Program-made: the position numbers and the translations under genes
Assembly: GCF_900101115.1 (NCBI RefSeq)
Contig: NZ_FNFU01000008.1
Span: 1-64,000, forward strand
Source: Cryobacterium psychrotolerans
GTDB taxonomy: Bacteria > Actinomycetota > Actinomycetes > Actinomycetales > Microbacteriaceae
Reading direction: 5' to 3'
Length of the DNA stretch: 64,000 nt
In this document: in pieces, positions 35,708-50,778 of the stretch
Numbering within the stretch: position 1 is the stretch's first letter
Layout: each line of letters begins with the position of its first letter
Notes under the pieces: generated by a model
What the model was told of the DNA's origin: nothing
What the model saw: only the letters and a program-made list of their open reading frames with translations
Databases searched by the model: none

Positions 35708-35798
35708 GGAGACGTCGCATAGTTCGGCTTAGTGCACCACCCTGCTAAGGTGGAGTGCCCTTTACGGGGCACCGTGGGTTCAAATCCCACCGTCTCCG
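35708..35798 (+). tRNA. tRNA-Ser (anticodon GCU)
   Basis: The acceptor stem GGAGACG pairs with CGTCTCC, discriminator G at 35798. Anticodon stem CCACC/GGTGG with loop CTGCTAA (anticodon GCT). Long variable arm GTGCCCTTTACGGGGCAC and T-arm GTGGG-TTCAAAT-CCCAC. A TATGAT box at 35671-35676 may be its -10. The AT-richer catabolic island begins just beyond. Confidence 0.97.
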
Positions 35799-35863
35799 CA
35801 CTGGGGAATTCAGCCTGTGCAACGGCCGAGTTCGTTAAATTGCGAACTGCGCGTCGAGGGTCG

Positions 35864-36142
35864 CTAGGACAGCTTCTCGGTTTCGACGAACACGATCGTG
35901 GCCGTGCCTCGGTTCGCCACGGTGTGCTCCGCGCCCGCCGGGCGAGTGTAGCTCTGGCCGATGCGCAGTTCCGCGGCAATCTCCGACCCGTCGGCGTTTG
36001 TGACATACATCGTGTCGTTGACGAGAGGCACCACGACGTACTCGAATTCGTGCCGGTGCATGGGGATCGCTCCACCGGGCTCGATCACCCACTTCGTCAC
36101 CCGAAAGATGCCGTTGTCGATCTGGGTCTCGCTGATGGCCAT
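35864..36142 (-). CDS. small cupin-domain protein
   Basis: 92 residues from ATG at 36142 with GAAGGA upstream. The single cupin barrel shows motif 1 PGGAIPMHRHEFEYVVVPL (His-x-His and Glu metal ligands) and motif 2 YTRPAGAEHTVANRG. It could be a metal-dependent isomerase or sensor; no reaction can be assigned. It is downstream of the PucR-type regulator on the same strand (69-base gap), so it is probably part of the cyclic-amide gene set. Confidence 0.82.
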   Translation of the reverse strand: MAISETQIDNGIFRVTKWVIEPGGAIPMHRHEFEYVVVPLVNDTMYVTNADGSEIAAELRIGQSYTRPAGAEHTVANRGTATIVFVETEKLS

Positions 36143-36210
36143 AGCGGTTCCTTCGATTGTGTTGTCGTTGAGCCGAGCATACTTGCCCCGCTTGCCCGAG
36201 TCGCGCCGGC

Positions 36211-37461
36211 TTACCCGCCGGCCGCGACGTCGTGTTGGTGGCCCAGCGCACGTTGACGCCCCAGCACAGGACTCTGGAGGCACAGGTACAGGTTCGTCAC
36301 GAATGCCGCAGACGTGACCGGCTCGCCGAACAGCTCCTCGATCTTCCCGAGTCGATACCTGATCGTGTTGGCATGCACGAACATGGCCTGCGCGGTGGCT
36401 GTGATGTTCTGATCCAACGCCAGATAAGTCACCAGCGTTGCGTGCAACGTGTCGGCACCGCGCAGTTCGTGCAGAATCGGGCGCATGCGTGCCAGCAACT
36501 GCTGTCCATCCACCTGGGAGAGCAGCCAGGTCGCGAGGTCGACTTCGTCCAGGCGCACGATCTCGGTCGCCGTCGCAGGGCCGGCGTCGGCTGCAAAGGA
36601 GCGTGCCCGTGACCGGGCGATCTCCAACGCCATTTCGGCCTCGCGGAATGCCGCCGGGGTTTCCGCTAACGCCCCGAAGGGCGCCGACGTGCCCACGGTG
36701 AGCGTCTGCGCGACCTGATTGAGCCACGCCTCGGCACGTCCGGCCGCGGGAATGACCGCGCTGATGGTCGCCGGTGTCTCTTGATCAAGCCTGCGGATCG
36801 AAACGAGCAGTGCCACTCCGAAGCTCTTGGCCGAATCGATCAGCCGTTGCACGTGCGCCTCGGTCGCCGATTCGCCCCCGGGCGCCGCCGCCTCCAGCGC
36901 GCGCAGCGGAACATAACTCGGGAACTTGTACTGCGCCAGTCGTCCCCAGTGCCGGTGCTCGCGCGAGGGCAGGACCCCATCCTGCAGCGTGGCCAGGACG
37001 TGCGCGTTGTCTCGGCGATCGCGCAGGCTCGCCCCGTGCTGGATGCCATTCACCGCTGCCAGCATGCGCTCGGCGGTGTCGAGCAGCACGTCACCGAGCC
37101 GGGGCAGCAGGTCCTCGCTGCGGGTGCCGATGGCCAGCACGTGCACGCCGTCGTGCAGGGCCACCGTGCGGGTGCGCAGGTGCCATCGGCCAATGGAAAA
37201 CTCCTGATCGGTCGCGTGCGAGGCCGCCACCTCGTTCCAGATCAGCCGGGTGGGGGCCTCGCCTGAGCTTTCGACAATTGCCCCGTCGGCGTCATACACC
37301 ACGGCCGCGCCATGACACAGGTCGGCGACCCGTCCGACGAGCGCCTTCACCGGCTCCTCCATAGACACAGCGTTCAGGAGCAGGGTCGTGACTTTGAGGG
37401 TGAGGGTTAGCTCCGCGGCCTGGTCCGCTAGCGACGGGTTTGAACCGGTTCCCTGCTCCAT
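36211..37461 (-). CDS. PucR-type transcriptional regulator, first
   Basis: 416 residues. A middle sensory region (residues 30-260) precedes the C-terminal PucR helix-turn-helix: TLVTYLALDQNITATAQAMFVHANTIRYRLGKIEELFG, near 355-395. The family activates purine, allantoin or amino-acid catabolism. It is divergent from hyuA with 211 bases between. Start ATG at 37461, whose ribosome site (GGAGGAGAGG) is partly inside a strong hairpin at 37468-37498. An ATCTGA-N6-TCAGAT palindrome at 37504-37521 is a candidate operator. Confidence 0.9.
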   Translation of the reverse strand: MEQGTGSNPSLADQAAELTLTLKVTTLLLNAVSMEEPVKALVGRVADLCHGAAVVYDADGAIVESSGEAPTRLIWNEVAASHATDQEFSIGRWHLRTRTVALHDGVHVLAIGTRSEDLLPRLGDVLLDTAERMLAAVNGIQHGASLRDRRDNAHVLATLQDGVLPSREHRHWGRLAQYKFPSYVPLRALEAAAPGGESATEAHVQRLIDSAKSFGVALLVSIRRLDQETPATISAVIPAAGRAEAWLNQVAQTLTVGTSAPFGALAETPAAFREAEMALEIARSRARSFAADAGPATATEIVRLDEVDLATWLLSQVDGQQLLARMRPILHELRGADTLHATLVTYLALDQNITATAQAMFVHANTIRYRLGKIEELFGEPVTSAAFVTNLYLCLQSPVLGRQRALGHQHDVAAGG

Positions 37462-37467
37462 GCCTCT

Positions 37468-37521
37468 CCTCCGCGCCCGAATTTCGCCCGCGCGGAGGAA
37501 AAAATCTGAGAAAGTTCAGAT
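37468..37521. promoter_or_regulatory. leader hairpin and palindrome upstream of the first PucR gene
   Basis: CCTCCGCGC (37468-37476) pairs perfectly with GCGCGGAGG (37490-37498). On the minus strand the distal arm contains the GGAGG of the regulator's ribosome site, so folding could hide it. Immediately outward, ATCTGA-GAAAGT-TCAGAT (37504-37521) is a perfect 6-base inverted repeat, possibly an operator for the divergent pair. Confidence 0.55.
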
Positions 37522-37672
37522 CCGGTCCTGCGTTGTCCGGGGGGTTTTGGAGATTCTACAGGCGTGCCCCGGTCGAGGTTTGGATTTTTCTAATGACGAA
37601 CGGGAACCGTGCCCCCACAGTTGTCATCAATCCATTCATTGACCAGTCCCAGAAATCCCAGGAGGAACACCG

Positions 37673-39718
37673 ATGACACAACTCCGCGTAGCCGTGGATG
37701 TTGGCGGAACCTTCACCGACGTGTGCATCTTCGACGAAGATACGAAGACCATGCGGGTGACAAAGGTTCCCTCAACGCCGCATGACCCAATGATCGCCGT
37801 CATGAACGGCGTTGAACGGGGTGAGATCAACCTGTCCGACGTCAGCCTGTTCTCGCACGGCACCACCGTGGCGACCAACGCTCTGATCACAAGAAAGTTT
37901 CCGGCCGCCGCCCTCGTCACCACCAAAGGGTTTCGTGACGTCATCGAGATTCGCGACGGTACCAAGGACGACCTCTGGGATGCCTACAACGACGTTTCTG
38001 GTCCCTACATTCGTCGCCGTGACAGATTCGAGGTGAGCGAGCGTATCGACTTCTCGGGACGCACGGTCACCCCGCTCGACGAGGAGGAGGCCCGCCGGGT
38101 GGCGGCCCTGCTGAAACGGCGCGGCGCCAAAACCATCGCCGTCTGCTTCCTCAACTCCTACGCGAATCCGGCCCATGAGACCCGTATGCGCGAGATCCTC
38201 GAAGAGGAGATCCCGGATGCCACTGTCTCGACCTCGGCCGAGATTCTGCCCGAGATCTTCGAATACGACCGGTTCAATACCGCGGTCGCGAACGCGGTGC
38301 TCGCTCCGCTCGTGTCGGGCTACGTGAACCGCCTCGCCACCCATCTGAAGGAGGGCGGCTACGCCGGCGACTTGCTGCTGTTGCACTCGGGTGGCGGCTC
38401 CATGACCCCTCGCATGGTCGAGAAGTACCCGGTGCGCCTGGCCGCCTCGGGCATCGCCGCGGGGGCGATCTCCGCAAAGCACATCGCCCAGCAGTGCGGC
38501 TACGAGAACGCGGTCAGCCTCGACATGGGCGGCACGTCAACGGACATCGCCCTCATCGCTGACGGCGAGCTGCGCATCACCAAGGAGTGGCAGGTGGAGT
38601 ACGGCCACCCGATCATCTTTCCCTCGATCGAAGTGCTCACCATCGGCGCGGGCGGCGGATCGCTCGCCCACATCGACATTGCCGGGTCACTACGTAACGG
38701 CCCCCAGTCGGCCGGGGCGGACCCCGGGCCCGCCTGCTACAGCATGGGCGGCGACCAGCCGACAAACACCGACGCCAACGTGGTGCTCGGCCGGCTCGGC
38801 ACCTCGCTCGCCGGCGGCGCCAAGAGCCTCGACAAGCGCCTGTCCGCAGAGGCCATCACCCGATTCATTGCGGAGCCACTCAACCTGGAACTGGCCGAGG
38901 CAGCCCACGCGATCGTCGCGGTCGCCAATGCGAACATGGCAGACGCGGTGCGTCTCATCTCGATTCGTCGAGGCTACGACCCGCGCGACTTTGCGCTGCT
39001 CGCCTTCGGCGGCGCGGGTGCGCTGCACGGTGCTGACGTTGCCCGCGAATTGAACATCCCTGTCGTCATCGTGCCGCCGAACCCCGGCGTCACTTCGGCG
39101 ATGGGATGCCTGCTCGTTGACATTCGTCACGACCTGTCACAGATGTACACCGGGCTGGCCGCAAACGCGGACGCCGATGACCTCGAGGCAAGCTTCACCG
39201 CCCTCGAGTCTGAGGCATCCGCCCGCTTGCGGCATGAGGGTGTCGCCGACGAAAACGCGCTGTTGCAGCGGCAAGTGTCGATGCGCTACCTGGGCCAGTG
39301 GCGTTCTCTCTCGGTGCCGATGGGGTCGGGCGAGGGAGCGCTCAAGCAGGCGATCACGGCGTTTCACGAGCAGTACGAGCGCGAGTTCGCCTTTCGACAG
39401 GATGGCACGCCGGTGGAAATCTACCAGTTGCACCTCGCCGCCATCGGCAAGACACCCAAGCCCTCGTTTCGACCGCATGCGCGCACGTCGACCCACCCCG
39501 GGACGCCGATCGATACCCATCCCGTGTACTTCGGCGCCGACGGCTGGCTGGACACGCCGGTGTACGACCGCGACACCATCCCGGCCGGGGCCAGGTTCCG
39601 GGGCCCGGCCATCATCAACCAACTCGACTCGACCACGGTGGTGCCGCCATACACACACGCCGAGATCGACGAATGGCTCAACATCCGTATTCACCTCGAG
39701 GAGATACTCCATGGGTAA
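37673..39718 (+). CDS. hyuA: hydantoinase/oxoprolinase family protein, subunit A
   Basis: 681 residues. The N-terminal Hydant_A_N domain begins VAVDVGGTFTDVCIFDEDT. The ATP-binding hydantoinase A domain has FSHGTTVATNALI, SLDMGGTSTDIALI (near 283-296) and IGAGGGSLAHID, and a C-terminal domain follows. With HyuB it makes an ATP-dependent amidohydrolase: N-methylhydantoinase, 5-oxoprolinase and caprolactamase all belong here, and carboxylases such as acetone carboxylase are distant relatives. The stop overlaps the hyuB start (ATGGGTAA). The gene set around it argues for a small cyclic amide as substrate. Confidence 0.92.
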   Translation: MTQLRVAVDVGGTFTDVCIFDEDTKTMRVTKVPSTPHDPMIAVMNGVERGEINLSDVSLFSHGTTVATNALITRKFPAAALVTTKGFRDVIEIRDGTKDDLWDAYNDVSGPYIRRRDRFEVSERIDFSGRTVTPLDEEEARRVAALLKRRGAKTIAVCFLNSYANPAHETRMREILEEEIPDATVSTSAEILPEIFEYDRFNTAVANAVLAPLVSGYVNRLATHLKEGGYAGDLLLLHSGGGSMTPRMVEKYPVRLAASGIAAGAISAKHIAQQCGYENAVSLDMGGTSTDIALIADGELRITKEWQVEYGHPIIFPSIEVLTIGAGGGSLAHIDIAGSLRNGPQSAGADPGPACYSMGGDQPTNTDANVVLGRLGTSLAGGAKSLDKRLSAEAITRFIAEPLNLELAEAAHAIVAVANANMADAVRLISIRRGYDPRDFALLAFGGAGALHGADVARELNIPVVIVPPNPGVTSAMGCLLVDIRHDLSQMYTGLAANADADDLEASFTALESEASARLRHEGVADENALLQRQVSMRYLGQWRSLSVPMGSGEGALKQAITAFHEQYEREFAFRQDGTPVEIYQLHLAAIGKTPKPSFRPHARTSTHPGTPIDTHPVYFGADGWLDTPVYDRDTIPAGARFRGPAIINQLDSTTVVPPYTHAEIDEWLNIRIHLEEILHG

Positions 39719-41696
39719 CACCGCAACGGCAACCGCAACCGCCCCCCTGACCACGCTGGATCCGGTCACTTTCGAGGTGCTCAAGAACGCCTTCGCAACC
39801 AGCGTTGACCTCATGAGCGAACAGATCCTGCGCACCTGCTACTCCTTCGTCATCTATTCGCGCGACTTCTCCTCGGCATTGTGTGATGCCGAGGGCAACA
39901 CCGTGATGCAGGGTTCAGGGGACATCGCCGTCCACGTCGGCACGCTGCACTTCCAGTGCAAGGCCGTGATTGAGGAATTCGGGACGGACATTCACCCCGG
40001 CGACGTCTTCGCCATCAACGACCCATATCGGGGGGGCACTCACTTCAACGACGTGTCATTTATTCGTCCGATCTTTGCTGATGGCGAAGTGATCGCTTAT
40101 GCGCAGAACAAGGGGCACTGGGCCGACATCGGTGGCAACGTGCCCGGTTCCTTCGATGTGAACGCCAAGGAGCACTTCGGGGAAGGCCTGCGCATAACTC
40201 CGGTGCGGGTCTGGTCCAAGGGCGTGTTTCTCCACGATGTGGCGCAATTGCTCGTCTCCAACACGCGTGCGCCTGCACAGGCTATGGGCGACCTGCACGC
40301 CCAGTCCGAGGCGACCGCTGTGTGCGAGCGACAAATGCAACGCCTCATTGGCCGATACAGCACCGCAACGGTGAAGACCGCGCTCAAGGAGACACAGGAC
40401 TACGTGGAGCGAACCGTGCGCCGCCGCCTGGAGACGCTGCCGCGTGGCACCTGGGAAACAGTCGACTACATGGATGCCGATCCCGGAAAGGGTGAGGGGC
40501 TCGTACCCATCAAGATCAAGCTCACCCTGGACGGCGAGGGCATTCACTATGACCTCACCGGCTCGGCACCGGTTGTTGAAACATTCCTCAACTCGGGCTA
40601 TGGCACAACGTTCTCAGCCATCTACGCCGGCACCAAGACGTTCTTTCCTGACGTGCCACTCAACTCGGGATTCTATGCGGCCGTCACCGCGGACATCGGG
40701 CCCGAGGGCACCGTCGTGAACGCTGGATGGCCCTACGCGGTCACCGGCTTCTGCTCCGGCCCCTACGAGAAGCTGATGAACGGCATTTTCGAAATTTGGT
40801 CCCAGGTCATGCCCGAGCGGGCCATGGCGTGTGCGTTCAATCTCGAATACCTGCTCGTGGGCGGCCGCGATGCGCGCAGCGAGAAGAAGCCCTACTTCAT
40901 GTGGTACGACTGGATGGCCGGCGGCTGGGGTGGCCGCGCGTCCAAAGACGGCTCGACGGCGACCGCACCCGTGTTCGGCCCCGGCCTCGCCGTGCAGCCG
41001 CTCGAAGGTCAGGAGCGTCTCTCGCCCGTGCTCACCTCGGTGCATCAGATTGCCGTCGACTCGGGTGGCCCCGGTCGCTTTCGCGGTGGCTGCGGCATCG
41101 AAAAGGGCGGGACGTTGACCGACGCTGAGTCCACAGTGATGAGCTACTCCTGCGACCGGGCTCGTTCCATCACCTGGGGCATTGAAGGCGGGTTGCCCTC
41201 GATCCCGCACGGCGTGTGGCTCAACCGCGGATCTGACAACGAGAGGTTCCTCGGCTCAAACTTCTCGTCGGTGCCCCTGCAGCCCGGGGACTCCTTCATC
41301 CGCCCCTCCGCCGGTGGCGGCGGGTACGGCGACCCGCTTGAACGCCCGGCGGAAGAAGTGCTGGACGACGTCATCGACGGCTACGTCTCGCTGCGTCGCG
41401 CTGCCGAGGACTACGGTGTGGTGATCGATGAGATCGATGCCGAGCTCGATGACTTCCGAATCGATTTTGCCTCCACCGCTGCCAAGCGCGAGTCAATTTC
41501 CGCGCAGCGGCAGGGGTGGCTCGAAGTCGACCCCACGGTGATCGCAGAAGGCTACAAGTCGGGCGAGATCGACATGCTCGATGTGATCCGCCGCCATGGC
41601 GTCATCCTCGACTGGGGCACGGGCGAGCTCTTTCCCACGACCACCGATCAGTTCCGTGCGCTGATGGAACGGCGGTCGGCGCAACACTGGGGCTGA
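39711..41696 (+). CDS. hyuB: hydantoinase/oxoprolinase family protein, subunit B
   Basis: 661 residues from ATG at 39711, with GAGGAG 8-13 bases upstream and an 8-base overlap with hyuA. Hydantoinase B domain landmarks: LDPVTFEVLKNAFATSVDLMSEQILRTCYS, ALCDAEGNTVMQGSGDIAVHVGTL, HPGDVFAINDPYRGGTHFNDV and the Gly-rich AGGGGYGDPLERP end. It forms the second half of the ATP-dependent ring-opening enzyme with HyuA. No gamma or delta subunit of the carboxylase relatives is present, so hydrolysis rather than carboxylation is expected. Confidence 0.92.
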   Translation: MGNTATATATAPLTTLDPVTFEVLKNAFATSVDLMSEQILRTCYSFVIYSRDFSSALCDAEGNTVMQGSGDIAVHVGTLHFQCKAVIEEFGTDIHPGDVFAINDPYRGGTHFNDVSFIRPIFADGEVIAYAQNKGHWADIGGNVPGSFDVNAKEHFGEGLRITPVRVWSKGVFLHDVAQLLVSNTRAPAQAMGDLHAQSEATAVCERQMQRLIGRYSTATVKTALKETQDYVERTVRRRLETLPRGTWETVDYMDADPGKGEGLVPIKIKLTLDGEGIHYDLTGSAPVVETFLNSGYGTTFSAIYAGTKTFFPDVPLNSGFYAAVTADIGPEGTVVNAGWPYAVTGFCSGPYEKLMNGIFEIWSQVMPERAMACAFNLEYLLVGGRDARSEKKPYFMWYDWMAGGWGGRASKDGSTATAPVFGPGLAVQPLEGQERLSPVLTSVHQIAVDSGGPGRFRGGCGIEKGGTLTDAESTVMSYSCDRARSITWGIEGGLPSIPHGVWLNRGSDNERFLGSNFSSVPLQPGDSFIRPSAGGGGYGDPLERPAEEVLDDVIDGYVSLRRAAEDYGVVIDEIDAELDDFRIDFASTAAKRESISAQRQGWLEVDPTVIAEGYKSGEIDMLDVIRRHGVILDWGTGELFPTTTDQFRALMERRSAQHWG

Positions 41697-41721
41697 CCGC
41701 AGCAGACGCCCTGGAAGTCTG

Positions 41722-41777
41722 GGGCGGGCATCCGACCGGGCATGCGCAAGCCAGCGCGAGGTGCAGGATGCCCGCCC
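41722..41777. terminator. long hairpin downstream of hyuB
   Basis: GGGCGGGCATCC (41722-41733) and GGATGCCCGCCC (41766-41777) pair perfectly over 12 bases with a 32-base loop. It starts 26 bases after the hyuB stop. There is no T-tract, so it is either a factor-assisted terminator or an RNA-stabilising or processing hairpin between hyuB and the permease. Confidence 0.6.
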
Positions 41778-41779
41778 AG

Positions 41780-41801
41780 ATATTGTGCAACAGCACAATA
41801 T
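41780..41801. promoter_or_regulatory. palindromic operator candidate upstream of the permease
   Basis: ATATTGTGC-AACA-GCACAATAT, with perfect 9-base arms. It contains TTGT-N8-ACAA with the same spacing as the site between the second PucR gene and pxpA (44992-45007), suggesting a shared regulator. Confidence 0.65.
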
Positions 41802-42025
41802 TTCGAGTATTCCTCGGGCGCATGCCCACTTGTTAGCACCTGCAGTATTTACCCATGATTGCTGAATGTGAAAGCCTCGCGGCGCTCACACTCTCCCTCA
41901 CCACGAATGACTTGGGCCGCGCACCGCTCGGCTCCAAGGCACGGCATCACCACACGACAGTCGCATGCGAGCGCCACCCACAACGACGTTCCGGCCGTTC
42001 GCGCCTGTCACTATCGGAGGTAACA

Positions 42026-43411
42026 GTGAACTTGAATTTGACTGGCAGCAACGACACCGTTGAGGCCACGGATGCGCTCTACAGAGAGGGCAACGATGAA
42101 GATCAGATGACTCGCGGCTCGCTCTCGATGGCGTGGTACGGCGTCGCCAGCGCGATGTTCTTCGTCTATATCGGGGCCGCCATGGCGATGGCCTACGGCA
42201 CCCTCAACGCTGTTATCGGCCTCGTACTCACGATCTTCGTCTACGGTCTGATCAACCGGGTGCTCGCCAAGTACGCGATCAACAACCGCACCACCGTGGC
42301 GTTGTTCTCGCGCACCATCCTCGGGACTGCCGGCTCGTCCATCGCCACGATCATCTTCGCCCTCGTCGCCATCTACTACGCGGTTTTCGAAGGATCCATC
42401 GTCGCCTACGCTTTCCAGACGGCATTCGGCGGTCCGACGTGGATGTGGTACCTGATTGTTGTGGTCTACTCCACGCCGCTGATCCTCGGCGGCGCACGCA
42501 AGTTCATCGACAAGCTCAACGGATGGCTCCTGCCCATCTACCTGGGCGGGCTCATTGCCGCCGTGATCTGGGCAGGCGTGCAGTACGGATTCACCGACAC
42601 CTGGCTCACGCAGCAGGCTGACCTCGCCGTGCCGCTCGCCGTCGGCGGACCCGGCTGGCTGGCCACCTTCGCCGGCTACATGGGCGTGTGGATCATGATG
42701 ATGTTCACTATGGACTACGCGGCCCTCGGCAAGCGCAAAGACATCAAGTTCCACCAGCGCTGGAGCTTCGGCTGGCTGTTCTACATCGTCGCTTACGGAT
42801 TCAGCGCAATCGTGGGCATCTTCCTCACCTTCACCATTCCCGGCATGGAGGTCTCGGAGACCGGCGTGGCAGGCGGTCTCGTCTCCATGATGGGCATTCT
42901 CGGCCTGATCGTCGTCTTCGTCTCGCAGACCCGGATCAACACCGCCAACTATTACCTCGGTGCAGCAAACCTCAAGTCATTCGGGGAGCGCGTTTTCCGC
43001 GTCAAGCTGCCCAACCTGGTCTGGGTGCTCATCTCGTCGCTGATCATCTTCCTGCTCATGTTGCTGCCCATCGTGCAGTACATCCTGCTCGCGCTGGCGT
43101 GGCAGGGCGTCCTGGTCACGGCGTGGGTGGCGATCGCGCTGACGCACATTCTGCTGAACCGTGGCAAGAATGAAGAACATGGCATGCTCGGCGACGCGCA
43201 CTACCGCTCGTTCAACAACTCGGGCCTCATCGCCTGGATCGCGGCCACAGCCATCGGCATCCTCATGCTCCAGCTTGGGGCGATCAACCCGGACCTGGCC
43301 GGTGTGGGTGCGACCTGGGGCCCGATCACCACTGCGGTTGTTGCTGCGGTTGTCTACGCGCTCCTCTGGAACGGCACTTCCTCCAGAACCGCGCTCCGCG
43401 TCAAGCGGTAA
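42026..43411 (+). CDS. NCS1-family permease (purine/cytosine/hydantoin-type)
   Basis: 461 residues from GTG at 42026, chosen because ATCGGAGG ends 5 bases upstream. There are about 12 hydrophobic segments, with the NCS1 pattern in the first (RGSLSMAWYGVASAMFFVYIGAAMAMAYGTLNAVIG) and TTVALFSRTILGTAGSSIATIIFALVAIYYAVFEGSI after it. The family imports cytosine, purines, allantoin or hydantoin with Na+ or H+. Its place between hyuB and the pxp operon makes it the likely importer of the cyclic amide degraded by this cluster. A clear terminator follows. Confidence 0.9.
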   Translation: MNLNLTGSNDTVEATDALYREGNDEDQMTRGSLSMAWYGVASAMFFVYIGAAMAMAYGTLNAVIGLVLTIFVYGLINRVLAKYAINNRTTVALFSRTILGTAGSSIATIIFALVAIYYAVFEGSIVAYAFQTAFGGPTWMWYLIVVVYSTPLILGGARKFIDKLNGWLLPIYLGGLIAAVIWAGVQYGFTDTWLTQQADLAVPLAVGGPGWLATFAGYMGVWIMMMFTMDYAALGKRKDIKFHQRWSFGWLFYIVAYGFSAIVGIFLTFTIPGMEVSETGVAGGLVSMMGILGLIVVFVSQTRINTANYYLGAANLKSFGERVFRVKLPNLVWVLISSLIIFLLMLLPIVQYILLALAWQGVLVTAWVAIALTHILLNRGKNEEHGMLGDAHYRSFNNSGLIAWIAATAIGILMLQLGAINPDLAGVGATWGPITTAVVAAVVYALLWNGTSSRTALRVKR

Positions 43412-43430
43412 CCGCCGCCGCGGCTCACAC

Positions 43431-43464
43431 AGGTGGGGCGCCCTTCGGGGTGCCCCACCTTTTT
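43431..43464. terminator. Rho-independent terminator after the permease
   Basis: AGGTGGGGC pairs with GCCCCACCT, followed on the plus strand by a T-run. It serves the permease gene; the convergent second PucR gene ends at 43511. Confidence 0.85.
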
Positions 43465-43510
43465 CATGCGCCCGCCCGTGCCGCGTCGGCCGCGTCGGCG
43501 GAGTTCCTGA

Positions 43511-44977
43511 CTAGTGCGTCTCCAGGCCCGCGAGGCGCAACGCAAACAGGCTGGTGGCCTGGCCGTCGACGGTGTCAAGCTGCACTCGGAGCAGGTTCTC
43601 GATCTGGCGAAGCCGGTAATTGAGCGTGTTGCGGTGGATGAACAGCGCGTCGCACGTTCGGGACGGTTGGGCGTTATGGCGCAGATACGTGCTCAGTGTG
43701 TCGAGGAGTTGGCTTGAGCGTTTGCTGTCATGTTCGACCAGCGGGGCGAGGAACCTGTGCGCGGCTTCACGCGCCCCACGGCCCGCGGTCGCGGTGACGA
43801 CGGCGCTCAGCCCGAGGTCTGGCGCGAGCTGAGGCCGCTCGATGTGTCGCACAAGGTCGAGCGCGTGAACGACCGAGAGCCGCAACTCGAAGAGGCTTGT
43901 GGTGGGTGCTTTAAGTACGAGCGGCTGTCTTGCGTGGATCCGAAGGAGTCGCTGGGCGACCGTGTCGAAGTCTTCCCGCGGCAGCTGCGCAAAGGCGACC
44001 AGTCGGCCGTCGAACTCGGTAACGCGCACCGTGTGGAAGGTGTCATGCAATGCGACTCGGAGCTGCCATGACGTGGACGCGAATTCGCCGCTCATGTCGG
44101 CGACGAGGAGGGTGGTCTCGGAGCGCCGGTCGAGCCCGAGCGTGTTGAATGCTTTGGTGACGTCGGTGTGGGTCGCTTCTTCCCAGGCCTCGCAAACGGT
44201 CACGAGGAGCTTGATTTCCTGATGTCGGCTCGCATCGACGACGACGGAGCGATTGAGCTGCAGCGCGATGATAGACGCGACCGGCCCGAGAAGTGATGCC
44301 AGCGGGGTGTCATTATCGGGTTGCCGTACGGCGAGGTGGCACGGGTTGTTGAGCCCCATGGGGAGGGGGATGTTGAGTACTCCTGCCCTGGGCTTCTTGC
44401 TGATTCCGGGTGCCCAGGACACGATCTCCGGGTACTGGGCGATCACCGTCCCGTAGGCGTCGTAAACCGCGAGCGGAGTTTGAACCGTGTCGAAGACTGC
44501 GGCGAGCAGGGTGACGACTTCGGCGCCCTTGTTCGCGAGCCGCGCGCACTCGTCCGCGAGGGTCCAGCCGCGGTTCACGACAACGAGGCGTTCTGCCTGC
44601 ATGACACTTTCGACATGCCGGTCCACCTGGAGCGGCGGCACGACGGAGGGGACTTCGAGCAGCGGCACGTCGTACGTGGCGCAGGCGGTGACGAGCCCTG
44701 GCGGAAGCACCCGGTGGGCCATCCCCGTCGCGAAAACGATCGCCGAAACGGGCACGTCGGCCAGGCGCTCGACGAAGGCATCCCAGGTTCGTTCTTCGCT
44801 GAAGTTCATTCCGATGCCGCTGGTGAGCAGGAGCGAGTCGGGATCGAGGTAAGGGGTTGGATCCATGAGTTCGGTAGGTGAGCAGCCGCTCACTTCGCAC
44901 TCAAGCCGAGCCTTCGTTGATGGCGTCTGGAGCCGGAGTTGAAGGGAAGGCTCAAGGAGAAGGTCAACAACGCGCAT
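43511..44977 (-). CDS. PucR-type transcriptional regulator, second
   Basis: 488 residues from ATG at 44977 (GAGG 7-10 bases upstream). An N-terminal PucR sensory domain (MRVVDLLLEPSLQLRLQTP..., then TSGIGMNF and PPGLVTACATYDVPLLEVP) is followed by a GGDEF-like middle and the C-terminal helix-turn-helix STYLRHNAQPSRTCDALFIHRNTLNYRLRQIENLLRV. Unlike the first PucR it has the full N-terminal domain. It is divergent from pxpA with only 97 bases between; the TTGT-N8-ACAA site lies there. It probably controls pxpA-pxpC and perhaps the permease. Confidence 0.9.
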   Translation of the reverse strand: MRVVDLLLEPSLQLRLQTPSTKARLECEVSGCSPTELMDPTPYLDPDSLLLTSGIGMNFSEERTWDAFVERLADVPVSAIVFATGMAHRVLPPGLVTACATYDVPLLEVPSVVPPLQVDRHVESVMQAERLVVVNRGWTLADECARLANKGAEVVTLLAAVFDTVQTPLAVYDAYGTVIAQYPEIVSWAPGISKKPRAGVLNIPLPMGLNNPCHLAVRQPDNDTPLASLLGPVASIIALQLNRSVVVDASRHQEIKLLVTVCEAWEEATHTDVTKAFNTLGLDRRSETTLLVADMSGEFASTSWQLRVALHDTFHTVRVTEFDGRLVAFAQLPREDFDTVAQRLLRIHARQPLVLKAPTTSLFELRLSVVHALDLVRHIERPQLAPDLGLSAVVTATAGRGAREAAHRFLAPLVEHDSKRSSQLLDTLSTYLRHNAQPSRTCDALFIHRNTLNYRLRQIENLLRVQLDTVDGQATSLFALRLAGLETH

Positions 44978-44991
44978 CAAAACCTCATTTT

Positions 44992-45007
44992 TTGTAAGCC
45001 TGCACAA
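44992..45007. promoter_or_regulatory. TTGT-N8-ACAA operator candidate between pucR2 and pxpA
   Basis: TTGTAAGCCTGCACAA. It has the same half-sites and spacing as the core of the palindrome at 41780-41801, and both share GCACAA in the right half. It lies 15 bases upstream of the second PucR start and 67 bases before pxpA. Confidence 0.55.
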
Positions 45008-45074
45008 ATTTAGCTCAAAGCTTAGGGCAATTGCCTACTGGGAGCGACTCGGGGTGCGGGCGTAGCGTGAGTTT

Positions 45075-45812
45075 ATGCTTCCTGCACAACGACGTTCAGA
45101 AATTCTGATTAATTCCGACATGGGTGAAGCGTTCGGTCTCCACAGCTTCGGCAACGACGAGGCCCTCATGGCGTTAATCGACGTGGCCAACGTCGCCTGC
45201 GGATTCCACTCCGGTGATCCGGACACGATGGATGCCACAGTGGCCCTGGCCAGGAAGCACGGCGTTCGCGTCGGTGCACACCCTGGCTTGCCCGACCTGG
45301 TCGGCTTCGGCCGCCGCGAAATGAAGCTCAACCCCGAAGAGGTTGAGTCCATCATCCGCTACCAGGTCGGCGCTCTCACTGGGTTTCTCGACAAGTACGA
45401 CATGCCCCTCAACCACATCAAGCCCCACGGCTCGCTCTACGGCATGCTCGCCCGTGACGAAGCCCTCATGCAGGGCGCCGTGAACGTTGCAAAAACCTAC
45501 GGGGTGCCCGTGTTCGGGATCGCCGGCAGCGCGCACCAGCGCGTGGCCGAGCGTGAAGGCGTCGAATTTGTTGGCGAGCTGTATGTGGACCTGGACTACA
45601 ACCCGGAGGGTGGACTCATCATCCTTCGCCGCCCCGAGCACACCGACCCCGGAGCAGCCTCAGCACGTGTGCGTCGCGTGCTCGAAAACGGCACGGTTGC
45701 CGCGGTCGACGGTACGCTGCTCGAAATTCCCTTCGGCAGCGTCTGTGTCCACTCGGACACTCCCAACTCGCCGGAGGTCGCGGAGGCAGTCCGCGCGGCG
45801 CTGCGCGACTGA
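45075..45812 (+). CDS. pxpA: 5-oxoprolinase subunit A (LamB/YcsF family)
   Basis: 245 residues, standard length. Family motifs: ILINSDMGEAFG, NVACGFHSGDPDTM, VGAHPGLPDLVGFGRREM, HIKPHGSLYGML and GELYVDLDYNPEG. With PxpB and PxpC it forms the ATP-dependent 5-oxoprolinase that opens 5-oxoproline to glutamate. It is the first gene of an operon with biotin genes interposed before pxpB. A 10-bp tandem repeat follows in the 93-base gap to the biotin carrier gene. Confidence 0.93.
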   Translation: MLPAQRRSEILINSDMGEAFGLHSFGNDEALMALIDVANVACGFHSGDPDTMDATVALARKHGVRVGAHPGLPDLVGFGRREMKLNPEEVESIIRYQVGALTGFLDKYDMPLNHIKPHGSLYGMLARDEALMQGAVNVAKTYGVPVFGIAGSAHQRVAEREGVEFVGELYVDLDYNPEGGLIILRRPEHTDPGAASARVRRVLENGTVAAVDGTLLEIPFGSVCVHSDTPNSPEVAEAVRAALRD

Positions 45813-45820
45813 CTGCCTGA

Positions 45821-45847
45821 ACCCACCTGGACCCACCTGGACCCACC
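45821..45847. repeat. 10-bp tandem repeat between pxpA and the biotin carrier gene
   Basis: ACCCACCTGG occurs at 45821-45830 and 45831-45840, followed by a partial third unit (ACCCACC). It probably arose by slippage in the intercistronic gap. Confidence 0.75.
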
Positions 45848-45905
45848 GCACGCGAAGCGCCGACAGCGCCTGTGCCACCCAAGATCTCCCAATGAAAGAG
45901 AGCAC

Positions 45906-46142
45906 ATGAGCGAGAACATCATCTCCCCGCTGCCCGGTATTTTCTACCGCAAGCCCGGCCCCGGCAAAGACCCCTACGTGAACGAAGGTGACACCGTCGA
46001 GGCGGGCCAGACCATTGGCCTCATCGAGATCATGAAGCAGTTCAGCGAGGTGCGCGCCGAGACCGCCGGCGTCCTCACAAGGTTTGAAATTGAAGACTTC
46101 GGCATGGTCAACCCCGGTGACGTCATCGCCGTGACCAACTAG
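45906..46142 (+). CDS. biotin carboxyl carrier protein (biotin/lipoyl domain)
   Basis: 78 residues, a lone biotinyl domain. The modification site is Lys in GLIEIMKQFSEV (residues 44-46 IMK, in place of the commoner AMKM). The preceding GDTVEAGQTIGLIE and following GVLTRFEIEDFGMVNPGDVIAVTN hairpin strands are intact. The EIMK form occurs in carriers tied to urea-amidolyase/5-oxoprolinase-like clusters, as far as I recall. With the next gene it gives a complete biotin carboxylation half-reaction inside the pxp operon. Confidence 0.9.
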   Translation: MSENIISPLPGIFYRKPGPGKDPYVNEGDTVEAGQTIGLIEIMKQFSEVRAETAGVLTRFEIEDFGMVNPGDVIAVTN

Positions 46143-46176
46143 TGCCAACGATGCACCCTAATCACGGGATTACTTC

Positions 46177-47532
46177 ATGAAGAAACTGCTCGTAGCCAAC
46201 CGCGGCGAGATCGCGGTCCGCATCATCCGCACCGCCCATGAAATGGGCATCGTCGTCGTCGCCGTCGTCAGCGAGGCCGACAAGACGTCATACGCCGCCG
46301 AACTCGCCGACGAAGTTATCGTCATTGGACCGGCGCCCGCCAGCCTCAGCTATCTCAACCAGGACGCCGTCCTCAAAGCCGCCATTGAGAGTGGCGCCGA
46401 CGCGGTGCATCCCGGCTACGGCTTCCTCTCGGAGAATGCGGCATTCGCCCGCAAGGTCATCGCAGCCGGAATCACCTGGGTCGGCCCGTCACCGGAATCC
46501 ATCGAACTCATGGGCGATAAGTCCCGGGCCCGTCAAGCCGCAATCGACGCCGGCGTTCCCACGCTTCGCGGCACGGAGGGGGCGCTCCGCGACGGCGACG
46601 ACATTGTCAGCATCGCTGCCGGAATTGGGTACCCGCTGGTCGTGAAGGCGTCCGCCGGTGGTGGTGGCCGGGGGATCCGCCTGGTCGCAAGCCCCGCCGA
46701 CCTCGTTTCCACGGTCGGAATCGCGCAGGCGGAGGCGCTCGCCGCATTCAACTCGTCAGACGTCTATTTCGAACTCTTTGTCACGAGAGCCCGCCACGTT
46801 GAGGTGCAGATTTTTGGTGACGGGGAAAACTATGTGCACCTGGGCGACCGCGACTGCTCCATGCAGCGCCGCCAGCAGAAAGTGCTCGAAGAGGCTCCGG
46901 CGCCCGGGCTGCCGGACCATGTGCGTCAGCTGATGCGGGACTCGTCTGTTGACCTTGCGCGTCAGGCCTCGTACGTCGGCGCCGGGACCGTCGAGTTCCT
47001 CTACGATCCCGAGACCGAGGAAGTGGCGTTCATTGAGATGAACACACGGCTTCAGGTCGAGCACCCCATCACCGAGGCGATCACGGGCATCGACCTCGTG
47101 CGCGAACAGTTGCGCATCGCCTCCGGCGAGAAGCTCGGTTACTCGCAGGAGGACGTCGCCTTCACCGGGCACGCGCTGGAGTTCCGAATCAACGCCGAAG
47201 ACCCCAGCAACAACTTCATGCCCAGCCCGGGAGTGATCTCCTCCCTCCACCTGCCAGGTGGTCCAGGGGTGCGAGTCGACTTCGGCTTCATCGCAGGCAA
47301 CGCCGTGGCACCCTTCTACGACTCGCTCCTGGGCAAAATCATCGTGTGGGCGCCCACCCGCGACCTGGCGATTTCGCGCGCCGAACGCGTTCTCGGCGAG
47401 GCGCGCATCGAGGGTGTCAAAACCACCGCAGGACTGTTGCGCACGCTCGTCGCACTCGACGACTTCCGTCAGGTCACCCACCACACCGCTTACATCGAAT
47501 CCGTACCCGACTTGTTGGGAGTACCCGCATGA
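46177..47532 (+). CDS. accC: biotin carboxylase (AccC-type)
   Basis: 451 residues. ATP-grasp features: KKLLVANRGEIAVRIIRTAHEMGI at the N-terminus, HPGYGFLSENAAFA, the Gly-rich loop VKASAGGGGRGIRLV, HVEVQIFGDG, DRDCSMQRRQQKVLEEAP, FIEMNTRLQVEHPITEAITGIDLV (Arg in NTRLQVEH) and the AccC C-terminal domain. It carboxylates biotin on the neighbouring carrier using bicarbonate and ATP. As a dedicated copy inside a pxp operon it may be distinct from the acetyl-CoA carboxylase subunit. It overlaps pxpB by 4 bases (ATGA). Confidence 0.93.
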   Translation: MKKLLVANRGEIAVRIIRTAHEMGIVVVAVVSEADKTSYAAELADEVIVIGPAPASLSYLNQDAVLKAAIESGADAVHPGYGFLSENAAFARKVIAAGITWVGPSPESIELMGDKSRARQAAIDAGVPTLRGTEGALRDGDDIVSIAAGIGYPLVVKASAGGGGRGIRLVASPADLVSTVGIAQAEALAAFNSSDVYFELFVTRARHVEVQIFGDGENYVHLGDRDCSMQRRQQKVLEEAPAPGLPDHVRQLMRDSSVDLARQASYVGAGTVEFLYDPETEEVAFIEMNTRLQVEHPITEAITGIDLVREQLRIASGEKLGYSQEDVAFTGHALEFRINAEDPSNNFMPSPGVISSLHLPGGPGVRVDFGFIAGNAVAPFYDSLLGKIIVWAPTRDLAISRAERVLGEARIEGVKTTAGLLRTLVALDDFRQVTHHTAYIESVPDLLGVPA

Positions 47533-48422
47533 CGCAACAATCCCAGGCGCGCTACACGTGGGGCGGCGACGAGTTCCTCTTCATTGAAATCGCGGAAGGG
47601 ATGTCTCTCGAGGCCAACTTCATCTCGAACAGCATCGCGAACGCACTCGAAGCGAAGGCACTGGACGGGGTCATCGACATCTGCCCCGCAAATGCGTCAC
47701 TCCTGATCCGCTTCAACCCGGATACGCTCCCACCCGCCGAGCTCGAACAGGTGGCGCGTTCCCTCGAGGCAGAGGTGCGTGCATCCACCAGGCAAGTGCT
47801 GGAAACCCGCATCGTTGAAATTCCCGTTTGGTACAACGACCCGTACACGAACGAGACCGGTGCGCGCTTTCGTGCCGGCTACCACCAGCGACCCGAGGGC
47901 AACGACCTCGACTATGCCGCCGAAGTGAACAATCTTGCCGACGCCGCCGAATTCATCAAGCGGCACCACGAATCGCCCTGGCTCGTTTCCATGGTTGGTT
48001 TCGTGGCCGGTCTGCCGTTCCTCTATCAGCTCGTCGACCGCGAGCACCAGCTCGAGGTGCCAAAATACCTCAGCCCCCGCACCGATACCCCCGCCCTGAC
48101 GATCGGTCACGGCGGATGCTTCAGCTGCATCTACTCGGTGCGCGGCGCGGGCGGCTACCAGATGTTCGGTGTTGCCGCCGCTCCCATCTTCGACCCGGGT
48201 CAGGAGCTGGCAGACTTCGCGGACTTCATGGTCTTCTTCAAGCCCGGCGACATCGTCAAGTTCAAGCCAGTCGACGAGGCCGAATACAAGCGCATTCAAG
48301 CCGAGGTCGAGGCGGGCACATTCACCTATCGGCAGGCGCCGGTTTCGTTTGATCTGGCAGCGGCACTCGCTGACCCCGAAGGCTACAAGGCGACGCTTCT
48401 GGAGGCGCTCAATGGCATTTGA
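47529..48422 (+). CDS. pxpB: 5-oxoprolinase subunit B / allophanate hydrolase subunit 1 family
   Basis: 297 residues from ATG at 47529. AHS1 (KipI-like) domain: YTWGGDEFLFIEI, the ETRIVEIPVWYNDPY segment, FLYQLVDREHQLEVPK and GHGGCFSCIYSVRGAGGYQMFGVAAAPIFDP. The family was first named from urea amidolyase and kinase-inhibitor work, but in PxpABC it is a 5-oxoprolinase subunit. At nearly 300 residues it is longer than the usual 220-240, with an extended C-terminal part after VFFKPGDIVKFKPVDEAEY. Its stop overlaps pxpC by 11 bases. Confidence 0.88.
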   Translation: MTQQSQARYTWGGDEFLFIEIAEGMSLEANFISNSIANALEAKALDGVIDICPANASLLIRFNPDTLPPAELEQVARSLEAEVRASTRQVLETRIVEIPVWYNDPYTNETGARFRAGYHQRPEGNDLDYAAEVNNLADAAEFIKRHHESPWLVSMVGFVAGLPFLYQLVDREHQLEVPKYLSPRTDTPALTIGHGGCFSCIYSVRGAGGYQMFGVAAAPIFDPGQELADFADFMVFFKPGDIVKFKPVDEAEYKRIQAEVEAGTFTYRQAPVSFDLAAALADPEGYKATLLEALNGI

Positions 48423-49377
48423 AATTCGAGAGCCAGGCCTCTCCACCACAGTGCAGGACCAGGGCCGGATCGGCTATTACCGTTACGGGATCCCCCAGGG
48501 CGGGGCCATGGATCAGTACTCCGCCTCTCTCGGTAACCGCCTTGTTGGCAATACCCCTGCAGAGGCCGTGCTCGAGTGCACCTACATCGGCCCCAGGGTT
48601 GTGACGACGACGGATGCCATAGTTGCCGTCACGGGCGCGCCCGTCGACGTGTTCATCAACGGCATGCCTGCCCCCCAGTACGCACGCCTGGCGCTCGCGG
48701 CAGGAGACGAGCTGCGGTTCGGCGTGATTCAAGGCGGCACGAAATACTTCATTGCGGTGCACGGCGGCATAGACGTGCCATCGGTACTCGGGTCGCGCTC
48801 CACCTACCCGATTGGGGCAATCGGCGGATTTGAGGGCAGGGCGCTCGCCGCCAATGACGTGCTGCCTGTGGGTGCGCCGATTGACAATGGGTTGCCCGTT
48901 TTGGCAACGATTGCAGAGGAAGACCGGCCGGTCTTCTCGCGCGATGTGAGCGTGCGCGTCATGCTCGGTCTCTATGACCACCACCTCTCCCAGGAGGGGA
49001 TCGACAACCTCTTGAACGCCGAGTGGACACTGACCCCGGTTGCCGACCGGATGGGTCTGCGCTACAGCGGCCCGGGTGTCCAGTGGCGGGAGCGCGAACA
49101 GCCGTTCGGCGCCGGCCAGGACCCGTCGAACATTGTGGATGCCGGGTATGCCGTGGGTTCGATCCAGATTCCGGGCGGCACCCAGCCGATCATCCTGCAC
49201 CGCGACGCGGTGTCGGGCGGAGGCTACGCGATGGTCGCCACCGTGATTTCAACCGACATGGACCTTGTGGCGCGGTGTGCGCCGGGCACAAAGACGCGCT
49301 TCGTGGCCGTCACGATGGATCAGGCGCTCGAGGCCCGGCACGAACACGCTGCGCAGGTCGCGAAGATCTGGTCGTAG
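48412..49377 (+). CDS. pxpC: 5-oxoprolinase subunit C / biotin-dependent carboxyltransferase family (AHS2)
   Basis: 321 residues from ATG at 48412 (GGAGGCG upstream inside pxpB). AHS2 motifs: EPGLSTTVQDQGRIGYYRYGIPQGGAMDQYSASLGNRLVGN, AVTGAPVDVFINGMP, YFIAVHGGIDVPSVLGSRSTYPIGAIGGFEGR and the C-terminal IQIPGGTQPIILHRDAVSGGGYAMVATVIS. Together with PxpA and PxpB it opens a 5-oxoproline-like lactam. The homologous domain in urea carboxylase accepts the carboxyl group from biotin, and here biotin genes are in the same operon. Confidence 0.9.
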   Translation: MAFEIREPGLSTTVQDQGRIGYYRYGIPQGGAMDQYSASLGNRLVGNTPAEAVLECTYIGPRVVTTTDAIVAVTGAPVDVFINGMPAPQYARLALAAGDELRFGVIQGGTKYFIAVHGGIDVPSVLGSRSTYPIGAIGGFEGRALAANDVLPVGAPIDNGLPVLATIAEEDRPVFSRDVSVRVMLGLYDHHLSQEGIDNLLNAEWTLTPVADRMGLRYSGPGVQWREREQPFGAGQDPSNIVDAGYAVGSIQIPGGTQPIILHRDAVSGGGYAMVATVISTDMDLVARCAPGTKTRFVAVTMDQALEARHEHAAQVAKIWS

Positions 49378-49439
49378 GTCGGCTGCCCCCGATTCTGCAC
49401 GATGAGCCTGAATTGCCCCAATGCTGAAGGAGATAGACA

Positions 49440-49628
49440 ATGCCGTTCGTGACTGTGAAGGTCTTCGAAGACCGCTTGTCGGATGATGAGTTTGCGGGCC
49501 GGCTGACATCGGCGGTGACCGAAGCTGTGGTGTCCGTGTGCGGCGAAAGCTCACGAGAGAACACCTGGGTAGTAGTCGAGGGCGTGCCTCGAAGTCACTG
49601 GTCGTTCGGTGGGGAGCGAAAGCTCTAG
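49440..49628 (+). CDS. 4-oxalocrotonate tautomerase family protein
   Basis: 62 residues, the usual size. Pro directly after the initiator Met (MPFVTVKVFEDRLS) is the catalytic base of the family, and the VVVEGVPRSHWSFGGE end matches the conserved C-terminal half. AGGAG lies 7-11 bases upstream. It closes the pxp operon (62-base gap) and may tautomerise an intermediate of the same pathway; which one cannot be told. Confidence 0.85.
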   Translation: MPFVTVKVFEDRLSDDEFAGRLTSAVTEAVVSVCGESSRENTWVVVEGVPRSHWSFGGERKL

Positions 49629-49733
49629 CTGTCAATCGGAAACCGGCGAGCTACGGACGGCGTCGCGGCCCCTTTTGGGGTGAGCGCGGGCCGTGCGCCT
49701 GCTGGCATAGTGGTCAGGGCGAAGGGGGCCACG

Positions 49734-50618: not shown

Positions 50619-50778
50619 ACGCGCGGGGATTGCCGGGCTTTTTGGGGGTACTCCGACGCTGGCTCCAGCCCCTCGGGCGTTGTTAGGCTCCGACTCGGGA
50701 GTGGGGCCGTGCTCGCGTGATTTCGGCAGCCATGAGCGAATCGGACTTCTGGAATGTCCGAACAACCTGGGGGAATCA

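Follow-up and report, generated by a model that had tools for sequence, protein, structure and literature searches.

A mobile gene block of Cryobacterium psychrotolerans that combines HyuAB with a biotin-linked PxpABC-type core, a candidate lactam amidolyase

Genes at the Locus

A window of 64,000 nucleotides of Cryobacterium psychrotolerans (the whole stretch analyzed; contig NZ_FNFU01000008.1, positions 1 to 64,000, forward strand) carries next to a tRNA-Ser gene a block, hereafter the island, that encodes HyuAB, an importer and a five-gene core comprising PxpA, a biotin carboxyl carrier protein (BCCP), a biotin carboxylase (BC), PxpB and PxpC (Table 1). The gene order from 5' to 3' is cupin and PucR-type regulator (both on the minus strand), HyuA, HyuB, permease, a second PucR regulator (minus strand), PxpA, BCCP, BC, PxpB, PxpC and tautomerase. 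All these genes are open frames of the window, overlapping or closely spaced, and the arrangement is operon-like, since the frames of HyuA and HyuB, BC and PxpB, and PxpB and PxpC overlap by a few bases. The gene block is confirmed: frames and domain models place HyuAB, importer, PxpABC, BC, carrier, two regulators, cupin and tautomerase together, as the original prediction had it. The limits proposed there (35864-49628) were about right, although the block conserved in a sister genome is slightly wider (35802-49632), and of the two predicted PucR regulators only the second has both domains of the family, the first having the helix-turn-helix part without the PucR N-terminal domain. On balance, and judging from sequence, we lean slightly toward reading the island as an acquired catabolic unit whose core would be a biotin-dependent lactam amidolyase, with HyuAB as a second ring-opener.

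Table 1. Features of the island and its left boundary (window positions).
Feature	Position	Strand	Remarks
tRNA-Ser(GCT), left boundary	35708..35799	+	Insertion hot spot in the genus; genus synteny ends here
Small cupin	35864..36142	-	PF07883, 28.8 bits, just above cut-off 27.2
PucR-family regulator 1	36211..37461	-	HTH_30 only, no PucR N-terminal domain
HyuA, ATP-binding subunit of hydantoinase/lactamase	37673..39718	+	PF05378, PF01968, PF19278; Pfam match 278 bits, above cut-off
HyuB, metal-binding subunit	39711..41696	+	PF02538, 512 bits, above cut-off
Divergent NCS1-fold permease	42023..43411	+	No Pfam match; fold nearest CodB/Mhp1
PucR regulator 2	43511..45007	-	PucR domain and HTH_30; divergent from core operon; start codon uncertain
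PxpA (LamB/YcsF)	45075..45812	+	PF03746, 282.9 bits; NF003814, 250.5 (cut-off 226)
BCCP, motif EIMKQ	45906..46142	+	Pfam 45.3 bits; NF005457, 106.7 (cut-off 87)
BC	46177..47532	+	Three Pfam domains; NF006367, 602 (cut-off 597)
PxpB-like carboxyltransferase subunit, urea-carboxylase type	47529..48422	+	CT_C_D, 135.4 bits
PxpC-like carboxyltransferase subunit, urea-carboxylase type	48412..49377	+	CT_A_B, 275.1 bits; AG..PSN..D residues
4-oxalocrotonate-type tautomerase	49440..49628	+	MPF start; PF01361, 41.1 bits
Mobile block	35802..49632		97.9% identical to C. tagatosivorans copy, there set off from both flanks by extra DNA

The Biotin-Linked Core

Comparison with curated models separates the carboxyltransferase subunits of the core from 5-oxoprolinase. 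PxpB and PxpC fell below the 5-oxoprolinase models (TIGR00370, 74.8 against 145.55; NF045499, 180.6 against 500), and PxpC passed the broader TIGR00724 for 5-oxoprolinase/urea amidolyase (250.4 against 230.2). The urea carboxylase model TIGR02712, with a single-chain cut-off of 1303.85, was reached by none of BC (506.6), PxpB (111.6) and PxpC (238.2); PxpB scored higher with it than with the PxpB model, in both cases below the cut-off. Among solved structures urea carboxylase was the nearest to PxpC (163.6 bits, YbgK following with 124.4), and for PxpB it came second (56.6) to the uncharacterized PH0987 (64.8).

In a PxpB plus PxpC tree rooted on urea carboxylases, which included 34 of 41 sequences (40 loci and the window), sequences of the island type (Micrococcales, Rubrobacter, Proteobacteria and haloarchaea) formed one group (support 95), and E. 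coli PxpBC grouped separately with a rhizobial 'type B' and with the second Pxp locus of the window's genome (support 100). Locus L039 of genome G152, which has no BC nearby, fell outside both. With L039 and L156 left out of both groups, the residue comparison revealed 19 positions common to at least 18 of the 19 island-type sequences and to all seven urea carboxylases, and to none of the six 5-oxoprolinase-type sequences (E. coli PxpBC and five kin). These are S57, D104, T107, R113, N134, V159, K179, Y180, T185, T187, Y210 and F274 in PxpB, and P28, A234, G235, S239, N240, D243 and Y246 in PxpC.

The biotin-handling partners appear complete. All 11 AccC residues checked are conserved in BC, and the biotin-lysine motif E[IV]MK[QTSNM] was present in 100 of the 102 loci examined, the M of E. 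coli being replaced in most of them by Q, T or S. Relatives were drawn from three samples, namely 80 of 143 close relatives from the GTDB collection, 20 annotated plasmid loci viewed of 90 matching records, and 13 neighborhoods of 11-20 kb each from other actinobacteria (396 genomes searched, 20 with a match). PxpA accompanies the core in 79/80, 20/20 and 13/13 of these loci, respectively, the single exception being cut by a contig end. Since the BC and BCCP sites are intact and the carboxyltransferase residues are shared with urea carboxylase, BC, BCCP and the carboxyltransferase may be taken as a working set, with PxpA as the presumed hydrolase. The better hypothesis would be that the core is mis-named and not a plain 5-oxoprolinase.

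It is unlikely, in our opinion, that the island is a second ordinary 5-oxoproline system, in which PxpABC, helped by BC and BCCP, would open 5-oxoproline to glutamate and HyuAB would be an OplA-like 5-oxoprolinase. This reading draws on the accessible text of PMC13274462, where 5-oxoproline is the established PxpABC substrate, and on PxpA, which passes the subfamily models NF003814 (250.5, cut-off 226) and NF003816 (218.9, cut-off 213), although the cut-offs of three other PxpA models were not reached. It is weakened by the failure of PxpB and PxpC at the 5-oxoprolinase models, by their grouping away from E. coli PxpBC with urea-carboxylase-type residues, by some relatives whose neighboring genes point toward omega-amino acids, and by another locus of the same genome. 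The latter (contig C17, about 108.5-117 kb; L038:8534-15839) encodes PxpA, fused PxpBC, fused BC-BCCP, a GntR regulator, a D-glutamate cyclase and an Nramp-type transporter. Because an Nramp-type protein, PxpT, serves 5-oxoproline uptake in C. glutamicum (PMC13274462, accessible text), this locus seems a better 5-oxoproline candidate than the island, and is likely a 5-oxoproline system that is biotin-linked too. The suggestion that the island itself acts as a 5-oxoprolinase is thus not supported, and a lactam amidolyase is preferred.

Other biotin-linked sets were also encountered. Plasmids of Bradyrhizobium, Rhizobium and Shinella (L194, L195, L196) carry a Pxp type that groups with E. coli PxpBC and has a longer BCCP, a short PxpB, a NAC regulator, an aminotransferase and an amino-acid ABC transporter. 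Genome G254 holds a further PxpABC-BCCP-BC set of 41% identity (L156, contig C36), and a PxpB of G296 shows the same identity.

HyuAB and the Permease

HyuAB has the traits of the ATP-dependent lactamase superfamily, i.e. the ATP motifs in HyuA (DVGGTFTD, DMGGTSTD and GADPGP) and the metal ligands in HyuB. Alignment to CapB showed that its four ligands (D/H/D/H, as given in the accessible part of PMC8453981) are conserved in HyuB and that its vicinal cysteine pair is absent. About 80 C-terminal residues of HyuB could not be aligned to CapB; they are alignable in orthologues of 66-67% identity. The pair scored 517.9 and 347.2 with the curated CapA and CapB models, under the cut-off of 1000 each. 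Among solved structures the best match of HyuA was N-methylhydantoinase (488 bits), and HyuB scored slightly higher with CapB (293.5) than with N-methylhydantoinase (269.5).

The permease matched no Pfam family at E<=10 and reached the cut-off of neither NCS1 family model, PF02133 or TIGR00800. A relative of 47% identity (L117) gave weak matches below the cut-offs (TIGR00800, 9e-8; PF02133, 0.03). The top Foldseek matches of the AlphaFold model of the island permease, a model of moderate confidence (mean pLDDT 72.5), were CodB and Mhp1, with TM values of 0.64-0.70. Since the model lies nearest to these two and no Pfam or NCS1 model was reached, the predicted NCS1 label is supported by the modeled fold only, and the family assignment by sequence did not hold.

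Together these matches bear on hydantoin or ureide catabolism, in which ring opening by HyuAB would yield an N-carbamoyl (ureido) acid whose ureido group would then be carboxylated and split by the core, given its likeness to urea carboxylase. The best solved relative of HyuA, the Mhp1-like fold (Mhp1 being a hydantoin transporter), the resemblance of PxpBC to urea carboxylase and the PucR regulators in the island are all in line with it. We nevertheless regard such a pathway as rather unlikely, given that 68 of the 80 core loci have no complete HyuAB, that no N-carbamoyl amidohydrolase or hydantoin racemase is found among the identified island genes, and that the constant companion of the core in the three samples is PxpA, allophanate hydrolase not having been searched for there. 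We retain lactams as the preferred substrates of the core.

HyuAB-type pairs lie near the core in three settings, namely Micrococcales, another actinobacterial family and a plasmid filed as Roseateles (organism unverified). In the second setting HyuAB orthologues are about 10 kb (G365) and about 20 kb (G536) from the core. The G365 region also has a GABA (gamma-aminobutyric acid) transaminase, an arginase-family gene, a class III aminotransferase, polyamine-type ABC genes and a cupin-like gene below the Pfam cut-off. The 'Roseateles' plasmid combines HyuAB, permease and Pxp; its HyuAB is non-orthologous (32-34% identity) and in reversed order, and its core groups with Rhizobium in the tree. 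The predicted link of HyuAB, permease and Pxp therefore recurs, in Leucobacter as well as on this plasmid. In G518, HyuAB is found with an NCS1-like permease (39%) and no core nearby.

Distribution and Gene Neighborhoods

The gene set is a member of a recurring cluster family and is not unique to the window. Orthologues of PxpB (at least 73% identity) were found in 11 of 57 Cryobacterium genomes and of HyuA (at least 78%) in five, each time at a distance of nearly 10 kb from PxpB. Of the 80 close relatives, 77 have the whole five-gene core, and the remaining three are truncated by contig ends. HyuAB with permease occurs in 12/80, comprising four Cryobacterium, six Leucobacter, an Aeromicrobium metagenome-assembled genome (MAG), whose PxpC is cut by a contig end, and one actinobacterial MAG; complete HyuAB is always accompanied by the permease (12/12). 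A substrate needing both enzymes, as initially suggested, has become less probable, as the core has no HyuA orthologue in 6 of the 11 Cryobacterium genomes and HyuAB is complete in only those 12 core loci. Four Cryobacterium loci (L071, L075, L080, L081) retain the core but have lost HyuAB together with most or all of the permease, a finding that weighs against our proposal; there the core must be useful alone or import must be encoded elsewhere. Repeated loss is indicated by a broken HyuB in L076 and by remnants of HyuB or the permease in three loci (L075, L080, L081). Because the Cryobacterium and Leucobacter loci form one supported group in the tree (SH-aLRT 98), the simplest history for them is that HyuAB was gained once and then lost in places.

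With 14 loci of short flanks set aside, 66 loci had full flanks. Nineteen of these have the permease, ten have HyuAB (all with the permease) and 14 have none of three front ends. In 33 the core adjoins an operon for asparaginase, a deacetylase-like enzyme, a major facilitator superfamily (MFS) transporter and short-chain dehydrogenases/reductases (SDR), and never the permease or HyuAB. This operon is seen in Micrococcaceae beside the same core, e.g. L093:635-4809, and might belong to a cyclic-imide route. In such a network HyuAB, or in Micrococcaceae the deacetylase-like enzyme with the asparaginase, would open imides to half-amides, and the core would open related lactams. The number of loci with the operon speaks for it, as does genome G536, where a stretch of about 25 kb holds HyuAB, the deacetylase (70%), an asparaginase-like gene (34%), SDR genes and the core. 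The deacetylase-like enzyme, a relative of polysaccharide deacetylases, matches the solved structure 3qbu, presumably HP0310 of H. pylori, with 533 bits. However, the imide activity of this deacetylase family is only putative, and the mutual exclusion is not significant once relatedness is allowed for (at most three informative pairs, median p 0.25). We thus find an imide network quite unlikely and return to the lactam amidolyase.

Two general rules were considered and discarded. That front ends are mutually exclusive agrees with zero overlaps between 19 permease and 33 deacetylase loci in the 66, but was not significant on the tree, and in G536 HyuAB and the deacetylase are both near the core; the four neighborhood labels together require 13 changes on the tree. 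That HyuAB depends on the core fits 5/5 Cryobacterium genomes and 12/12 loci, the latter count being biased as loci were seeded on the core, but fails phylum-wide.

Neighbors of more distant relatives suggest an omega-amino acid as the product of the core. A plasmid of Ruegeria sp. TM1040 carries gabT and gabD beside the core, both above cut-offs. In Rhizobium CIAT894 the core is accompanied by a succinate-semialdehyde dehydrogenase (SSADH) above cut-off, a carbonic anhydrase (by annotation), bioB and 8-amino-7-oxononanoate synthase, and in Acidiphilium bioB adjoins it. Class III-type aminotransferases adjoin the core in 5/20 plasmid loci by annotation and 4/20 by similarity cut, and a molybdenum hydroxylase in 3/20. 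Of the 13 actinobacterial neighborhoods, 11 of them from genomes of one family, four contain a GABA transaminase above cut-off, two an SSADH and eight the large subunit of a molybdenum hydroxylase. Since the 13 whole genomes hold only 12 GABA transaminases above cut-off, four in stretches of at most 20 kb are far above chance by a hand estimate. The window's own genome has GabT above cut-off.

The small genes of the island recur as well. A similar cupin gene adjoins the core in five Cryobacterium loci (L071, L075, L076, L080, L081) and in L074, a gene 42% identical to PucR regulator 1 occupies the same place in G078, a regulator similar to PucR regulator 2 is present in 69/80 loci and a tautomerase-like gene in 12/80.

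Composition and Mobility

The lower GC content and poorer codon fit noted originally are borne out by gene medians, which are 0.640 in the island and 0.698 in the rest of the window for GC (Mann-Whitney p 9e-6), 0.794 and 0.908 for GC3 (p 3e-4), and 0.21 and 0.48 for codon log-likelihood (p 2e-4). Nine island genes were compared with 43 other script-chosen frames, all with over 90 scored codons. These 43 also served as the training set of the codon score, which is therefore biased against the island; GC and GC3 are free of that bias. The expected acquisition next to tRNA-Ser(GCU) was also upheld. Seven genus members were compared: in six the left flank is syntenic up to the tRNA and the match stops at most 3 bases from it; in G298, presumably C. 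tagatosivorans, it stops 46 bases later. The nearest record is C. tagatosivorans Sr47, with an identical PxpB. In G298 the island is 97.9% identical across 13.8 kb, the flanking stretches are 84-91% identical, and other DNA lies between the island and these flanks, about 42 kb of it on the tRNA side and about 27.6 kb on the right. G078 and G141 carry the cluster on a contig other than that of the LCP gene, the marker of the site used in the window. The block is mobile, because its site differs in these three genomes and its identity in G298 exceeds that of the flanks.

A foreign origin by composition alone was considered and is weakened by the same cluster having 60-61% GC in other Cryobacterium (G078, L077, L078; sampled flanks 61.5-65%). 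A donor inside the genus therefore suffices, and the low GC of the island may mean no more than that it came from a relative of lower GC. The cluster and its downstream flank differ by no more than 3 GC points in six Leucobacter-group loci. No convincing pair of direct repeats that might serve as att sites was found between 35.5 and 50.3 kb, and an inverted 19-mer pair was rejected as an att candidate, being near chance level by a hand estimate. Ahead of the island in G298 stands, as judged by eye, a degenerate copy of the tRNA-following sequence, which is suggestive of insertion without being proof of it. Inspection of frames by eye, without a family scan, recognized no integrase in about 70 kb around the G298 island. 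The region between tRNA-Ser and tRNA-Arg also encodes, directly past the right end of the island, a CHAP-domain protein and a long protein whose repeats were seen by eye (49680-53538), and the same tRNA-Ser region of C. tagatosivorans has type I restriction-modification-like genes, recognized by eye (L060:4210-10390).

Proposed Function

In our proposal the NCS1-fold permease would import small cyclic amides. BC would carboxylate biotin on BCCP with ATP and bicarbonate, PxpBC, built like the carboxyltransferase of urea carboxylase, would move the carboxyl to the ring nitrogen, and PxpA would hydrolyze the activated amide, opening the ring, after which the carbamate would lose CO2. The product would most likely be an omega-amino acid, with 2-pyrrolidinone to GABA as the first candidate conversion, to be finished by a transaminase and a semialdehyde dehydrogenase encoded elsewhere in the genome. 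A cluster of caprolactamase, omega-aminotransferase and dehydrogenase offers a precedent (PMC6061476, accessible part). HyuAB could be a second ATP-dependent opener that shares this import route and acts on ring amides outside the range of the core, such as N-substituted lactams and hydantoin-like rings, or it might deliver substrate to the core. We infer the N-carboxylation, the substrate and the order of HyuAB and the core. CapAB requires bicarbonate, according to the accessible text of PMC8453981, a hint that both HyuAB and the core may work via a carboxylated intermediate.

Several further observations weigh against this proposal. The GABA link rests on distant relatives: a GABA transaminase is beside none of the 80 close relatives (up to 10 kb each side) and SSADH beside one, GabT adjoins one and SSADH two of the 20 plasmid loci, and the genome's own SSADH-like gene is under the cut-off (561.8 against 646). 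Biotin-linked Pxp sets of Rhizobiaceae/Bradyrhizobium and the C17 locus have no urea-carboxylase residues, so that biotin linkage alone defines no substrate; one of the 20 plasmid loci (L161) shows neither BC nor BCCP. HyuAB orthologues lie 2.3 Mb from the core in G495 and occur in G518 and G409, neither of which is listed with a PxpB match at E<=1e-50, the PxpB and HyuAB searches presumably covering the same 396 genomes, and one of the five HyuA orthologues in Cryobacterium (G259) has an internal stop. HyuAB and the core have come together more than once, yet neither is strictly dependent on the other, because HyuAB occurs without a nearby core and the core without HyuAB.

More tentatively, and with more doubt than confidence, we propose that bacteria and haloarchaea share a widespread unrecognized biotin-dependent lactam amidolyase, mislabeled 5-oxoprolinase, that would act on unstrained lactams by carboxylation of the ring nitrogen followed by hydrolysis. 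In the island it would be paired with a second, unrelated ATP-dependent opener, one importer thereby serving N-H and N-substituted ring amides alike. Core genes in plasmid records are annotated as 5-oxoprolinase, acetyl-CoA carboxylase and allophanate hydrolase; if the proposal is true, these labels hide a lactam-opening enzyme of Actinomycetota, Proteobacteria and haloarchaea. It would then matter for how pyrrolidone solvents, nylon monomers and polyamine by-products are degraded, and would allow a direct test of whether ATP-driven hydrolysis of stable amides proceeds by phosphorylation or transient carboxylation.

Comparison with Known Systems

Our literature search, with most subscription journals outside it, found neither a characterized biotin-linked Pxp cluster nor any cluster that joins HyuAB to PxpABC; within the same literature the N-carboxylation route is undescribed for bacterial lactams, the chemistry being known for urea. 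The accessible part of PMC8683493 names 2-pyrrolidinone only as a nitrogen source tested. The same cluster is present in related genomes, none of those found being characterized, the composition is not uniform, and the original interpretation as a whole is partly supported.

The PxpABC systems of E. coli, B. subtilis and C. glutamicum likewise have PxpA and PxpB/PxpC homologues in one operon. The island adds BC and BCCP, its PxpB/PxpC fall in a different clade with urea-carboxylase residues, and its PxpB is about 80 residues longer than that of E. coli (297 versus 218). P. aeruginosa PA0492-PA0496 presumably represents a similar gene set. Urea carboxylase/urea amidolyase (3va7, 5i8i) has in common with the island a BC, a carrier, both carboxyltransferase halves and the carboxyltransferase residues, but the island enzyme is split into four proteins and its hydrolase partner is PxpA, not allophanate hydrolase. 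In Aspergillus nidulans the lam locus, with LamA and LamB, is needed for the conversion of 2-pyrrolidinone to GABA. Its urea-carboxylase-like protein with a LamB/YcsF partner resembles the island in general description, as opposed to compared sequences, and is fused and eukaryotic. A Trichoderma segment has predicted urea carboxylase and lamB genes (PMC8675399, accessible part).

As for HyuAB, the caprolactamase CapAB of P. jessenii shares the HyuA/HyuB family, the ATP motifs and the four metal ligands. The island pair differs in falling below the CapA/CapB cut-offs, in having no vicinal disulfide and in the longer C-terminus of HyuB. Work on N-methylpyrrolidone reportedly concerns nmpAB. N-methylhydantoinase (7hk5, 9h03), the best solved match of the island HyuA, is one fused chain of 1288 residues, while the island enzyme is split into HyuA and HyuB.

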